Positions 5,666 to 62,213 of a DNA stretch of 64,000 bases are shown in pieces (position 1 is the first letter of the stretch; every line of letters starts with the position of its first letter). Under the pieces are notes generated by a model. The model was not told the DNA's origin, searched no databases, and saw nothing but the letters and a program-made list of their open reading frames with translations. The DNA is taken from the NCBI RefSeq assembly GCF_003703835.1, contig NZ_RDQR01000001.1, positions 248,001-312,000 of the forward strand, read 5' to 3'. The DNA is from Auritidibacter ignavus. GTDB taxonomy: Bacteria; Actinomycetota; Actinomycetes; Actinomycetales; Micrococcaceae. The position numbers were made by a program, and so were the translations under genes.

Positions 5666-5669
5666 CTAG

Positions 5670-6039
5670 GGTGGAGACGCCGGGAATCGAACCCGGGTCC
5701 GATGTGAACTTCAGTAGGCTTCTCCGTGCGCAGTCTGTTCTGAAGTTTTATCGACCTCGATCGTCCCACAGACAGGCGATCGTTCAGGTCTAGTCGGCTT
5801 CAGGTCTTCGTTGATTCCCCCGACAGGGTCAACGAACAGTGGCTATCTAATCGACGCCAGACACCGGGCCGATAGCATTCCCGGGCTGACGGACTCGATC
5901 ACTGATTAGGCAGCGAGAGCGAAGTCAGTGCGCTTAGATTCGGCACTTAATTGATTGCAAAGGGCGTTTACGAGATGACTTTGCGTCCTCGGCACGCTTC
6001 CCTTACCTCAACTCACATCGTCGAAACCGATCGTCCCCT
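5670..6039 (-). ncRNA. ssrA: Transfer-messenger RNA (tmRNA)
   Basis: This RNA rescues stalled ribosomes with SmpB and tags the unfinished protein for proteolysis. The 5' end GGGGACG (6039 downward) pairs with CGTCTCC near the 3' end (5673-5679) to form the acceptor stem, and the T-arm GGGTTCGATTCCC follows the tRNA-like rule. The tag frame reads AESKRTDFALAA followed by TAA, which matches the tag of Arthrobacter/Micrococcus relatives. After the discriminator A at 5672 the genome reads CCC rather than CCA, so the terminal CCA must be added after transcription. smpB lies just upstream on the same strand. Confidence 0.97.
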
Positions 6040-56624: not shown

Positions 56625-56700
56625 ACATCACGAATGAATTAAGGTTTCAGGGCGTGGCCTAGCGACGCAGGTGGCGAAATCTTTCTATGCTGGAATGACG

Positions 56701-58083
56701 ATGCAGACTGAAACACCGGGTATTGCCCGACTCCTCCAGCTTTCCGGTGAAGGCGACCGTGCGGCCTTCGCAGCACTTTTTGATACCTCCGCACCCTCGG
56801 TTTATGGTTTTGCTCGCGCTCTGCTGACCACCCAAGAACAGGCCGGCGAAGCTACCGTCTCGGTGTTCACCACCTTATGGGAGCAAGCGCCCCACTTTAA
56901 TCTCGATTTCACTCTGGACGCTAGCGATGAAACCGCCCGGAACCGTACTGCTGCCACCTGGATTATTTCACTCGCCCAGCGCACCTTCGCTGAGCTCATT
57001 CATGCCGGGCATTTCACCGAGATCAACGACGAAGCCGGGTTGCTCCCCCTGGCCGCCGAACTGCCGGAGTTGCACGGACTGTCTGAGGCCCAGTTGCGCG
57101 CGTTGACCATCATCTGGCTAGGAGCCCGCTCCTACCCGGAAGCAGCTCGGGAGCTAGGAGTGGGAGTTCCCACCCTAAAATCACGGTTACGTGATACCTG
57201 TTCGCGGTTGTCACAACGCTATATTGCAGCGGTCACCGGGGTCTCTGACACCACTCAAGATCCGATTCTGGCAAAACCGGTTACCCCGGAGGTCACCGCA
57301 CGCACCGGCCAGAGTCCCACCTTTTCACAATCGATTACCACCGATTTGGAGTCTGGCCTGGTCGACGAATTGGCTGCTCTGGTGGCCACCAACTCAATCG
57401 ATGAAGACGAGCGCATCGCCATTGATAGCCACGTTCACCGGCTGGGCCGGGAAAAAAAAGAACAGTGGCAACTACGCATCAGCCTTTTGCAACGCAGCCT
57501 AGCGTGGGGGTTCCGCCGACTGACTACCGAACCGGAGTCTTGGATGCTCGATCAGCTACTGGAATCCTTGCCAGAGCAGAATCTTGGGGTCGGCTTCGTC
57601 GAGCAGTTTGATACGCACGAACCCGAACCTGAGCCGGCCAGCGGTACTAAGCGTAGAATCATCTGGGCGGTGGTCATTGCCCTCTTGCTGGCTGCCGTCA
57701 TTGCCATCTCGACGCTTCTGGCCTCCAGCGACGATATCGTTTCCACCGTCGATGACGCCCACGATACCCAGCTGACCTCGCCTCAAGATCTCAACGCCGG
57801 CGGTACCGTGCAAGCCCACCTCTCCCGGGATGAAGACGTGGCATACCTGTCCTTCTCCTCGGTGCCAGATCTGGGAGCTGACCAAACCTATCAGGTCTGG
57901 CTCTTTGCATCTGCCGGCGACTCTCCCTCTTCGCTCGGCCAGTACGATGCCACCCAAATGGAAGACCGCCATGTCCAATTCCGTGGGGTCAACGGCTACG
58001 AGCAGCTCTGGGTCACCATTGAGCCTGAGAACGGCTCAGACTACCCCACCACCGAGCCACTGGTCCAGATCGATTTGCATTAG
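56701..58083 (+). CDS. Fused ECF sigma factor and RskA-type anti-sigma factor
   Basis: One uninterrupted 460-residue frame joins two normally separate proteins. Residues 12-66 form sigma region 2 (GDRAAFAALFDTSAPSVYGF) and 118-176 sigma region 4 with a helix-turn-helix (YPEAARELGVGVPTLKSRLR). After a linker, residues 218-265 match the anti-sigma domain of RskA (DELAALVATNSIDEDERIAI) but lack the zinc-binding His/Cys set. One membrane helix follows (about 319-341), then an extracellular RskA domain (about 355-460; YQVWLFASAGDSPSSLGQYD). In mycobacteria SigK and RskA are separate, and RskA is cut by membrane proteases to release SigK. The upstream GTG at 56671 and ATG at 56695 are alternative starts. 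Confidence 0.88.
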   Translation: MQTETPGIARLLQLSGEGDRAAFAALFDTSAPSVYGFARALLTTQEQAGEATVSVFTTLWEQAPHFNLDFTLDASDETARNRTAATWIISLAQRTFAELIHAGHFTEINDEAGLLPLAAELPELHGLSEAQLRALTIIWLGARSYPEAARELGVGVPTLKSRLRDTCSRLSQRYIAAVTGVSDTTQDPILAKPVTPEVTARTGQSPTFSQSITTDLESGLVDELAALVATNSIDEDERIAIDSHVHRLGREKKEQWQLRISLLQRSLAWGFRRLTTEPESWMLDQLLESLPEQNLGVGFVEQFDTHEPEPEPASGTKRRIIWAVVIALLLAAVIAISTLLASSDDIVSTVDDAHDTQLTSPQDLNAGGTVQAHLSRDEDVAYLSFSSVPDLGADQTYQVWLFASAGDSPSSLGQYDATQMEDRHVQFRGVNGYEQLWVTIEPENGSDYPTTEPLVQIDLH

Positions 58084-58918: not shown

Positions 58919-60502
58919 TTAGTTGCCCAGCTGGGATTCATCACCGAGGGTCACCTGAACTTCTTGCTGTTCGCCGTCACGGGTAACACCCAAGGTAATT
59001 TCCGACCCGGCGGCGTGCTCACGAACCGTGGCAGTCAGCGCCTGAGAATCCGCGGTGGGTTTACCGTCGGCGGAGGTAATGACATCACCTTCTTGAATAC
59101 CGGCTTCATCGGCCGGCGATCCGTCGGCGACATCCACCACGCGAGCGCCAGCGGCGAAGGCTCCCCCACCGCCAGATCCGGGGGCCAACGGACCGGCGGA
59201 TTCTGACCCGTCGGTGCGTGCAGCCTCAGGGGTGACCGACACACCGAGGGCACCGTGAGTGGCTTCACCGTTTTCGATCAGTTCACCGGCCACACGCTGG
59301 GCGTAATCGACCGGAATAGCAAAGCCCAAACCGATATTGCCTTGTTCACCACCGGATGAGCCACCGGCCGAGGCGATGGCGACGTTAATACCGATCAACC
59401 GTCCTTGAGAATCCACCAGCGCGCCACCGGAGTTACCCGGGTTAATGGCAGCATCGGACTGAATCACGTTGATGTGGATGACGCCCGAGGACTGCGACTG
59501 TTCTTGCTGTCCAGGAAAATGGAACTCGAACAGCCCATCGTCGTCACCTCCGGATCCCGGCCCACTGTCTGGTTCCGGAGCCGCCGAAGACTGGACCGCG
59601 ATGGTGCGATCCATTTGGGAGACGATACCGTCAGTGACGGTCCCCGAAAGACCCAGCGGAGCACCGATCGCGATGGTTTGATCTCCGACGTTGAGATCGG
59701 AGGAGGATCCCATCTCAATCGGCGTGAGTCCCTCAGCATCGATCTTGATGACAGCCAGGTCGCTGAGCGGGTCGGTGCCCACGACTTCTGCGGTGTAAAC
59801 ACGGGAGTCTGCGGTTTGCACACTGAGCTCGGCATCACCGGTGGCACCCCCGAGGGTGACCACGTGGGTATTGGTCAGAATATGGCCTTGATCATCCAAT
59901 ATCACCCCGGAGCCACTCCCCGCCCCGGAGGAAGACGCCGCCGAAATCGTCACCACCGAAGGCGATGCCGTCGCTGCCGCGTCGGTGACCAGAGTGGTGT
60001 TTTCCTCACGGTTGACCCCGCCGGTGTTCCCGGAGCGATCCCCGCTGCGGTCCTCAGCGCTAAACACGCCTGAGGAATCATCGTTGAGCGCAGAAAACCC
60101 GTACAGTGCGCCTGCGCCGATCCCGCCGCCGAGTAAGCCGGCCAGTAACGCAATGGTCAGCACTGCCGGTAAACCGAAACTTTTTTTGTGCTGTTGCTCG
60201 GGCGCGTCGTGACCGTGTTGAGCTGAGCCAGTCTGGTCGGATGGGCCAAGCGCCGAAGCCCCGTCGAGGGGTGCAGTCGCATACGGTGGCTGTCCCGGGG
60301 ACTGAGCGTTCTGCTCAGCACCAGCCGGTGGAAAGACCGGGCCGGTGGATTCATCGGCCTCGGATGGCGTGGCCGGGGCACCCGCAGGTCGTTGCGACGG
60401 AAACGGTGGCATGTTGCCACCAGGCTGGGAGGAACTGTTTTCCGGGTTCTGAGAGTTATTCAGATTGCCAGACTCGCTCATGGGTTGTTGATGTCCTTCC
60501 AT
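58919..60502 (-). CDS. Membrane-anchored HtrA/DegP-type serine protease with PDZ domain
   Basis: The 527-residue protein has a Pro/Gln/Ser-rich cytoplasmic N-terminus (about 1-125), one membrane helix (about 130-152) and an extracellular trypsin-like domain. The catalytic triad is visible: His near 212 (LTNTHVV), Asp near 247 (LSDLAVIKID) and Ser near 357 (PGNSGGALVD). A PDZ domain (about 410-515) closes the protein. It is a probable envelope quality-control protease like HtrA of mycobacteria. Starts at 60502 and 60481 are both possible. Confidence 0.93.
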   Translation of the reverse strand: MEGHQQPMSESGNLNNSQNPENSSSQPGGNMPPFPSQRPAGAPATPSEADESTGPVFPPAGAEQNAQSPGQPPYATAPLDGASALGPSDQTGSAQHGHDAPEQQHKKSFGLPAVLTIALLAGLLGGGIGAGALYGFSALNDDSSGVFSAEDRSGDRSGNTGGVNREENTTLVTDAAATASPSVVTISAASSSGAGSGSGVILDDQGHILTNTHVVTLGGATGDAELSVQTADSRVYTAEVVGTDPLSDLAVIKIDAEGLTPIEMGSSSDLNVGDQTIAIGAPLGLSGTVTDGIVSQMDRTIAVQSSAAPEPDSGPGSGGDDDGLFEFHFPGQQEQSQSSGVIHINVIQSDAAINPGNSGGALVDSQGRLIGINVAIASAGGSSGGEQGNIGLGFAIPVDYAQRVAGELIENGEATHGALGVSVTPEAARTDGSESAGPLAPGSGGGGAFAAGARVVDVADGSPADEAGIQEGDVITSADGKPTADSQALTATVREHAAGSEITLGVTRDGEQQEVQVTLGDESQLGN

Positions 60503-60722
60503 TTCAGGGCCTTGACTCAGGTGAGCTGGAGATCATTCTCCCCTACGTTTCTGGAGGTTCTGAGAGTAGCAACTGGACGTTAGCTGGATGCTGTCTCGAT
60601 ACTGTGGAGCGTGCACTTTAGCAGCGCTACCCCGTACACTCTAAAGGGTCACCAGTCCACCCTGATGTCACAGTAGGCCAGGTGACGTCAGGTAACCTGT
60701 CCGGTCCGAAGGAGTGAATAAT

Positions 60723-62213
60723 GTGACTCCAGTAATGCCCCTGGCTTCCTTCACCGTGTCGATGTTTAGCCTGATCGTTGTGGCGGTATTTCTGATCGTC
60801 GTGGTGGGAGGCTTGGTGCGAATCCTTCGCCGCCCGAAATTGTGGTCGGATCAACGTTTCGGCCAGGGTAGATCCGGCCAGCGGTCGCGTGAGCGCACTC
60901 GCCCAGAGAGTAAAGCTCGGATCCCACTAGACGACCTTTTTCAGCAGGCCAATCTCGAGCTACTCGAGGCCGATCACAGTATCCATCGCGCTGAAGAAGA
61001 GGTCGGTTTCGCGATGGCTTCCTATGGTGAAGAGGCGGTCGAGGAATTCCATCTGAAGGTCCAACAGGCCAAAGAATCACTCTTGCAAGCGTTTCGGACC
61101 AGTCAACAGGTGGAACGTCAGCTCACGGAGATCCCAGAGCACCAAGCCCGTCAGCAACTCGAAGAAGTTCTGGCCACCGCCAACCGAGTTGATGAGGTCT
61201 TGGAACAGCAAGAGGCGTTCTTCGACAAGTTGCGGGGCCTAGAGGATTCTGCCGAAGAGGGGCTACGCAAGCTCCGCTACGAGGCCGACGATATTGACCT
61301 GAAGATTGAACCAGGGCGCCTGGTATTAGAGCGACTGACCGAGCAGTATCAGGGGCCGAGTTTAGAAGAGGTCTCCAATAATCATCGTCATCTCATCAGC
61401 GGGATCGCTGAACTGCGTGGCACGATCGATCAGGCCGCCGAATTGTTGAACGCCGGGGATCGGTCTCAAGCAACACTGGCTATTCGGCAGGGCTGGGACC
61501 GTGCCGTGAATCTCCGTTCGCTTGCCGAAGGGATCCTGCACAAAGAGGTCCAACTTTCCACAGCGGTGGAGAATCTCAACGCCGGACTCGTCGACTCAGA
61601 ACAAGATATCTTGGCTGCTGAGGCGCTGATGGAGCAGGGCGACTACAGCAATTTGCGCCCCCCGACGACAGGCCTACGTCAGGCGATCGATGAAGTGAAA
61701 GCTGGGCTCCAGCAGGACAAGATCGATCCGGAGAAGCTCTTGGACCGGTTGTCCCAGGCTCACCAGCGGCTCGCTGAGCGACTCGAGCTTATCCAGAACT
61801 ACCACGATAAACTGGCCCGCGCCCGGACCGCGCTGGGTAAAGAGTTGCAACAAGCTCGAGCCAAAGTGCGCGGTAGCTCTGACTACATTGGCAGGCGTGG
61901 TCGATATATCGGCTATAGCGCTCGTGCCAAATTCAATGAAGCCCAGTCCGCACTCCAAACCGCCGAGCAACGGGCCGAGACAGATCCCATCGATGCCTTG
62001 AACAACGCCCGCCGCGCTTCTCAATTAGCTGATCAGGCCGCCGAGATCGCTCACAACGAGCCCGATGATGGCTTCGGTCCTACGTACCCGATCGGGATGG
62101 GGCGCACGAGATGGGACCGAAGCTCCACCGGGTCTATCAGCAGTGGCATCCCCTTCCCCATGAAACATCGGGCGGGTTCACGGAGTCGTCGAGCGTCGCG
62201 ACGTCGTCGCTAG
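60723..62213 (+). CDS. Membrane-anchored coiled-coil protein, TPM-domain family without the TPM domain
   Basis: The 496-residue protein has one N-terminal membrane helix (about 11-33) and a very long alpha-helical coiled-coil region (about 55-440). The C-terminal segment (SDYIGRRGRYIGYSARAKFNEAQ) matches the tail of actinobacterial TPM-domain proteins, which normally start with a secreted TPM phosphatase-like domain; here that domain is absent. A Ser/Arg-rich basic tail closes the protein. I start at the GTG at 60723, eight bases after AAGGAG. It precedes pspA by about 117 bases, suggesting a role in membrane stress. Confidence 0.78.
   Translation: MTPVMPLASFTVSMFSLIVVAVFLIVVVGGLVRILRRPKLWSDQRFGQGRSGQRSRERTRPESKARIPLDDLFQQANLELLEADHSIHRAEEEVGFAMASYGEEAVEEFHLKVQQAKESLLQAFRTSQQVERQLTEIPEHQARQQLEEVLATANRVDEVLEQQEAFFDKLRGLEDSAEEGLRKLRYEADDIDLKIEPGRLVLERLTEQYQGPSLEEVSNNHRHLISGIAELRGTIDQAAELLNAGDRSQATLAIRQGWDRAVNLRSLAEGILHKEVQLSTAVENLNAGLVDSEQDILAAEALMEQGDYSNLRPPTTGLRQAIDEVKAGLQQDKIDPEKLLDRLSQAHQRLAERLELIQNYHDKLARARTALGKELQQARAKVRGSSDYIGRRGRYIGYSARAKFNEAQSALQTAEQRAETDPIDALNNARRASQLADQAAEIAHNEPDDGFGPTYPIGMGRTRWDRSSTGSISSGIPFPMKHRAGSRSRRASRRRR

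Follow-up and report, generated by a model that had tools for sequence, protein, structure and literature searches.

A SigK/RskA-type sigma and anti-sigma factor pair fused into one predicted membrane protein in Auritidibacter ignavus and related Micrococcaceae

Introduction

Hybrids in which a sigma factor and its anti-sigma factor form one membrane protein are already known, and the category is not new. IutY of Pseudomonas putida is activated by Prc and RseP, and the same has been proposed for the ECF48, ECF52 and ECF53 proteins (PMC8999054, PMC5411451). In the two-protein SigK/RskA system of Mycobacterium tuberculosis, helix 4 of the anti-sigma domain contacts region 2.2 of the sigma factor, and RskA functions independently of a zinc motif (PMC7406223). 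PhyR is a sigma mimic, in which the core- and promoter-binding regions are degenerate and the binding of the anti-sigma factor is retained (PMC8103513). The contact with the RNA polymerase core is made, in primary and ECF sigma factors alike, by a polar DxxDxxQE surface (PMC13147305).

Here we analyze a gene of A. ignavus, found in a 64-kb stretch of DNA (hereafter, the window), which encodes a SigK-like and an RskA-like half in a single chain. No fusion of the SigK/RskA (ECF19) type was found in the literature searched, the main ECF re-classification (NAR 2021) being outside that search, and no paper in it named both Micrococcus luteus and RskA. The unusual part of the case is that a sigma/anti-sigma pair fused in cis has systematically lost its core and promoter contacts.

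Results and Discussion

Gene, start and promoter box

All coordinates of the gene and its features refer to the + strand of the window. According to the preliminary description, one frame encodes sigma regions 2 and 4, an RskA-like anti-sigma domain, one transmembrane helix and the RskA_C domain, which our reading of the frame and the profile searches confirm: the frame is intact, without interruption, from 56671 to 58083, and the gene proper (56701-58083) codes for 460 amino acids plus the stop codon and is a single open frame in all orthologues. The ATG at 56701 is the best candidate for the start and likely the true one, because a TATGCT hexamer (56686-56691), resembling the -10 box of a leaderless-type promoter, lies 9 nt upstream of it, as it also does 8-9 nt before the starts of separate sigK genes. 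Orthologues align at this ATG with an N-terminal METxTPG; the hexamer occupies the matching position in the Citricoccus fusions, and the remaining fusions have TANNNT there. Autoregulation by SigK was considered as a test of activity and proved uninformative, since the upstream box resembles a housekeeping -10 element in both the fused and the separate state. Inside the part coding for the anti-sigma domain there is a run of eight A (57452-57459), the sole A/T run of at least eight in the window and a possible slippage or error-prone site.

Domain architecture

The protein consists of sigma regions 2 and 4, a linker, a cytosolic anti-sigma domain, one transmembrane helix and an extracellular RskA_C domain. 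The region 2-like domain (56716-57018, residues 6-106), delimited by profile matches, the match to the SigK structure 4nqw_A and alignment, has helices at residues 8-16, 20-41, 45-65 and 77-101 in the AlphaFold model. Its region 2.2 (56839-56880) reads QAGEATVSVFTTLW where SigK has LSEDTTQEVYLQVW, so that the core-contact Gln and Glu are gone, and its region 2.3/2.4 (56959-57012) reads WIISLAQRTFAELIHAGH where SigK has WLMTIAHRRAVDKVRSTQ, with the basic residues gone. The region 4-like helix-turn-helix (57070-57219, residues 124-173) retains VPTLKSRLRD. The linker (57220-57324) carries a motif, DPxLxxxVT, common to five of the six fusion genera, Micrococcus being the exception, and aligned separate SigK and RskA proteins have no equivalent of it. 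The RskA-type cytosolic anti-sigma domain (57325-57567, residues 209-289), recognized by a weak PF22618 match and by alignment, is devoid of a zinc motif. It is followed by the juxtamembrane motif LPEQNLGVGF (57568-57597), fusion-specific by alignment, of which the pattern Q-[DNE]-[VIL]-G is kept in nearly all listed fusions and is variable in separate RskA proteins. The transmembrane helix (57646-57723, residues 316-341) is seen both in the sequence and as a helix of the model, and the RskA_C domain (57724-58080) completes the chain.

Profile matches to the window protein differ widely in strength. RskA_C (PF10099) reached 61.5 bits (E 1e-16), above its cut-off of 29.4, and below their cut-offs were sigma region 4 (PF08281; 20.4 bits, E 4e-4), sigma region 2 (PF04542; merely 13 bits, E 0.1) and RskA_N (PF22618; 12-13.6 bits, cut-off 27). 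The NCBIfam SigK model matched at E 3e-20, yet with 72 bits versus a cut-off of 226, and the solved SigK structure 4nqw_A was matched at E 2e-7. The proposed composition is thus strongly upheld for RskA_C and modestly for region 4, while region 2 is marginal and more degenerate than the preliminary description implied. Among 30 orthologues, matches were obtained to RskA_C in 30, to sigma region 4 in 25-26, to RskA_N in 22 (the best at 4e-11) and to sigma region 2 in 10. The window protein contains neither a Cys motif nor a Pfam match to a carbohydrate-binding module, which sets it apart from the ECF52 type, and Pfam detected no receiver domain in it. The absence of the zinc-motif Cys residues, which had been pointed out before, is real, but it is normal for RskA, the M. 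tuberculosis protein not relying on such a motif (PMC7406223), and was rejected as a special feature.

Distribution and origin of the fusion

When 395 genomes of the same family were searched, full-length, one-frame matches were obtained in six genera (g1, the genus of the window itself, g2, g21, g4, g15 and g13); elsewhere the matches were split or partial. The named carriers are Enteractinococcus, Yaniella, Citricoccus (with Micrococcus terreus), Micrococcus (lylae, lacusdianchii and others) and Nesterenkonia; in the search of named genomes these fusions were found with the alignment as the query, and the window protein alone matched none. The 47 distinct fusion sequences of the six genera are all open, and every readable fusion orthologue is a single frame (the Micrococcus assembly L051, with a run of unread bases within the gene, was left out). 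Such conservation means that the fusion is neither chance nor error. Two genes are retained in Kribbella, Microbacterium, Agromyces, Williamsia and Nocardioides. In Micrococcus G138 (L050:7043) the fusion stops directly after the transmembrane helix, making it a natural sensor-less variant, and no RskA_C is left anywhere in that genome.

Neither another RskA nor a close SigK was found in the A. ignavus genome or in the tested Yaniella/Enteractinococcus and Micrococcus genomes. Some fusion genomes (g2, g4 and g13, including Citricoccus and Nesterenkonia) possess second, separate SigK/RskA pairs (L164-L169) at another locus, which group in the tree outside the trmL-locus clade of the family.

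Sister genera of the family have sigK and rskA side by side or with a few bases of overlap, and the gene order DnaJ-like, SpoU, fusion or sigK-rskA, PIG-L, HtrA is common to fusion and separate-gene genomes. In phylogenies of both halves against SigK/RskA pairs, a single branch separated all fusions from the other proteins, and they were monophyletic in each tree (support 100/99 and 100/100). In its own tree the anti-sigma half is nested with the family's separate RskAs. Because both halves are monophyletic and the locus is the same as that of the separate pairs, one fusion event at the trmL locus, from adjacent sigK and rskA, is the simplest account; the two genes would have been joined in the ancestor of the Yaniella/Enteractinococcus-Citricoccus-Micrococcus-Nesterenkonia clade.

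As to the neighborhood, an HtrA-like protease gene (58919-60502) stands directly after PIG-L in fusion genomes, and etfAB-like genes lie between PIG-L and HtrA in two separate-gene genomes examined. The closeness of HtrA had been offered as a hint of a common pathway; it turns out to be general Micrococcaceae synteny, found also beside the separate genes, there beyond the etfAB-like ones, and was rejected as evidence for a dedicated partner. Further on (60714-62213) a coiled-coil-rich protein of 499 amino acids is encoded, PspA-like by eye and with no Pfam match at E 0.001, which is kept in the same position in Citricoccus, Micrococcus and Nesterenkonia. The sole Rfam match in the window at gathering score is a tmRNA gene (5669-6038, - strand).

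Loss of polymerase and promoter contact residues

Residues of the 47 distinct fusions were compared with those of 57 separate SigK-like proteins, using the numbering of the separate SigK L041. The region 2.2 Gln (Q71) is present in 57/57 separate proteins and in 0/47 fusions (1.00 to 0.00), and the neighboring Glu (E72) falls from 0.86 to 0.02. Likewise, from separate to fused proteins, E67 and R58 each fall from 0.96 to 0, T97 from 0.95 to 0.02, R102 from 0.86 to 0 and D105 from 1.00 to 0.02, and A103 of region 2.4 is lost as well; the fold residues F41, W78 and W94 stand at 1.00 in both sets. The net charge of region 2.4 declines from +2.7 in the separate proteins to about 0 in the g1, g4 and g21 fusions; in the window protein, where the HRRAVDKVRS of SigK is replaced, it is 0, and in Yaniella/Enteractinococcus eight residues of this region are deleted. 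In region 4, K-R-RD is retained in five fusion genera, and the Micrococcus fusions have lost the recognition helix along with the linker motif. A within-genome control is provided by the second, separate SigKs of six fusion genomes, which retain QE or QD and RRA[VI]D.

The reduced number of acidic residues in region 2.2 brought up activation by Thr phosphorylation in the style of ECF43. It was rejected, because T52 lies one residue before the lost Gln, which is not the ECF43 position (PMC13147305), and because many ordinary SigKs have the conserved Thr as well.

Selection and predicted structure

Codon models applied within genera gave dN/dS of 0.03-0.19 in every domain of the fusions and of 0.017-0.046 in separate SigK, these ratios being rough, as synonymous sites are near-saturated between species. 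Given such values in every domain, the fusion gene is not a pseudogene, and purifying selection on it persists. Between genera, identity is 0.87 in separate and 0.44 in fused proteins for sigma region 4 and 0.67 versus 0.41 for region 2, and the anti-sigma domain shows a smaller drop, from 0.46 to 0.37, so that it is mainly the sigma half that has been relaxed.

The window protein and a Micrococcus fusion were modeled with AlphaFold (mean pLDDT 85 and 83, respectively). Their sigma halves best matched RskA-bound SigK (4nqw_A), with TM scores by target length of 0.81 (window) and 0.76 (Micrococcus), against merely 0.25-0.36 with RNA polymerase-bound ECF sigmas. 4nqw is in the AlphaFold training data, and the models were read for the conformation of the sigma half rather than for the placement of the anti-sigma domain. 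The sigma half is accordingly predicted to adopt a clamped, RskA-bound-like conformation, the arrangement to be expected from a cis-acting anti-sigma domain.

Proposed function and alternatives

We consider that the product would be a single-pass membrane protein whose own sigma half is clamped in cis by the anti-sigma domain. This half would have turned into a sigma mimic, retaining the fold and the contact with the anti-sigma domain and losing those with the RNA polymerase core and the -10 element; because of this loss, its release as a promoter-specific sigma factor is unlikely, and it would rather serve the anti-sigma domain as an internal partner. The clamp would open upon changes in the extracellular RskA_C domain, making the region 4 helix-turn-helix, or a surface of the anti-sigma domain, accessible to another partner. 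We infer the loss of sigma activity, as well as the signal, the partner and the output. A cis-clamped, PhyR-like mimic is the reading that we favor, at about even confidence. More tentative is the extended proposal that the sigma half, stripped of its polymerase and promoter contacts, is a permanent cis-bound dummy capping its own inhibitor, and that a new membrane signaling module has thereby arisen across actinobacterial genera, including Micrococcus. Against a mimic speaks region 4, which, with its KSRLRD, is well retained outside Micrococcus and which a pure dummy would not need. Besides, as anti-sigma helix 4 touches region 2.2, part of the change could represent co-evolution in cis, some activity being kept.

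The main competitor, quite possible though behind the mimic, is a functional ECF sigma tethered to the membrane: in response to an envelope signal the RskA part would be cut, first at site 1 and subsequently at site 2, a cytosolic protease would remove the anti-sigma domain up to the linker, and active sigma would be released. The architecture agrees with this, IutY being a tested precedent and ECF48/52/53 proposed ones (PMC8999054, PMC5411451), and so do the M50 site-2-protease homologues encoded in the A. ignavus genome, the purifying selection on the sigma half, the region 4 helix retained in five of six genera and the conserved juxtamembrane and linker motifs, which could be cleavage or stop sites. 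Such a sigma would, however, have to bind polymerase without the usual region 2.2 residues, since the Gln (in all fusions), the Glu (in nearly all) and most region 2.4 residues, retained in separate SigKs, are lost; region 4 is lost in Micrococcus, the sigma half is relaxed relative to the anti-sigma half, and the anti-sigma domain would still be covalently joined after membrane cleavage. Of the earlier suggestion of a tethered sigma or a cis-acting inhibitor, the membrane-anchored fusion therefore stands, and the inhibitor probably works in cis, as the RskA-bound conformation of the model indicates; the ability of the sigma half to act once released finds no support, since the core-contact Gln is absent in 47/47 fusions and the inhibitor would stay attached.

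It is unlikely that the protein is a self-capped anti-sigma factor whose target, in trans, is a different ECF sigma of the cell and whose attached pseudo-sigma competes with that target. A sigma mimic is indeed combined here with an intact anti-sigma domain, the PhyR/NepR system shows that a mimic can compete for an anti-sigma factor (PMC8103513), and further ECFs are encoded in the A. ignavus genome; yet the A. ignavus, Yaniella and Micrococcus genomes are without another RskA or a close SigK. A slowly decaying relic with no remaining function, for which the lost sigma motifs and the Micrococcus G138 gene lacking its extracellular domain could speak, is very improbable in view of the open frames and the dN/dS values given above. 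The joining of two genes by a sequencing or assembly error, to which the A8 run might have pointed, has a negligible probability, the same fusion recurring in many independent genomes, so that the orthologues refute it.

Under the favored mimic, the sole SigK-locus gene of A. ignavus, Yaniella/Enteractinococcus and Micrococcus may not encode a sigma factor, which would change its annotation. In the fusion group, which comprises soil and skin bacteria (Micrococcus, Citricoccus, Nesterenkonia, Yaniella and relatives), one half of the switch may be a repurposed dummy. The case is one of a single origin, where a two-protein sigma/anti-sigma switch collapsed into one chain and the unfused state persists at the same locus in sister genera. 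The residue pattern poses a testable question: is a sigma factor that is linked to its inhibitor for good able to remain one, or will it become a mimic like PhyR?

Comparison with known systems

The nearest relative is SigK/RskA of M. tuberculosis (ECF19 with AS19-1; 4NQW), which has homologous halves in the same order, a zinc-free anti-sigma domain, one transmembrane helix and RskA_C, and the fusion model fits its RskA-bound SigK; there, however, two proteins with intact region 2.2/2.4 motifs stand in place of one protein with these motifs lost. IutY (ECF243) of P. putida likewise unites sigma and anti-sigma parts within one single-pass membrane protein, but its periplasmic anti-sigma part is of an unrelated type, and the release of its sigma by Prc/RseP is experimental, while sigma activity of the fusion is putative. 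ECF52 (SCO4117), ECF48 and ECF53 of Actinobacteria share with the fusion the sequence of sigma, cytosolic anti-sigma, transmembrane and extracellular parts in one chain; they differ in having a zinc finger instead of a zinc-free RskA-type domain with RskA_C, and ECF52 has in addition a proline-rich region and a carbohydrate-binding module. Alphaproteobacterial PhyR resembles the fusion in retaining the ECF fold while the regions that contact core and promoter are degenerate, and its retained anti-sigma binding is the respect in which the fusion is PhyR-like by our proposal. In contrast to PhyR, a soluble, receiver domain-containing protein binding NepR in trans, the putative mimic described here is joined to its own anti-sigma domain and bound to the membrane.
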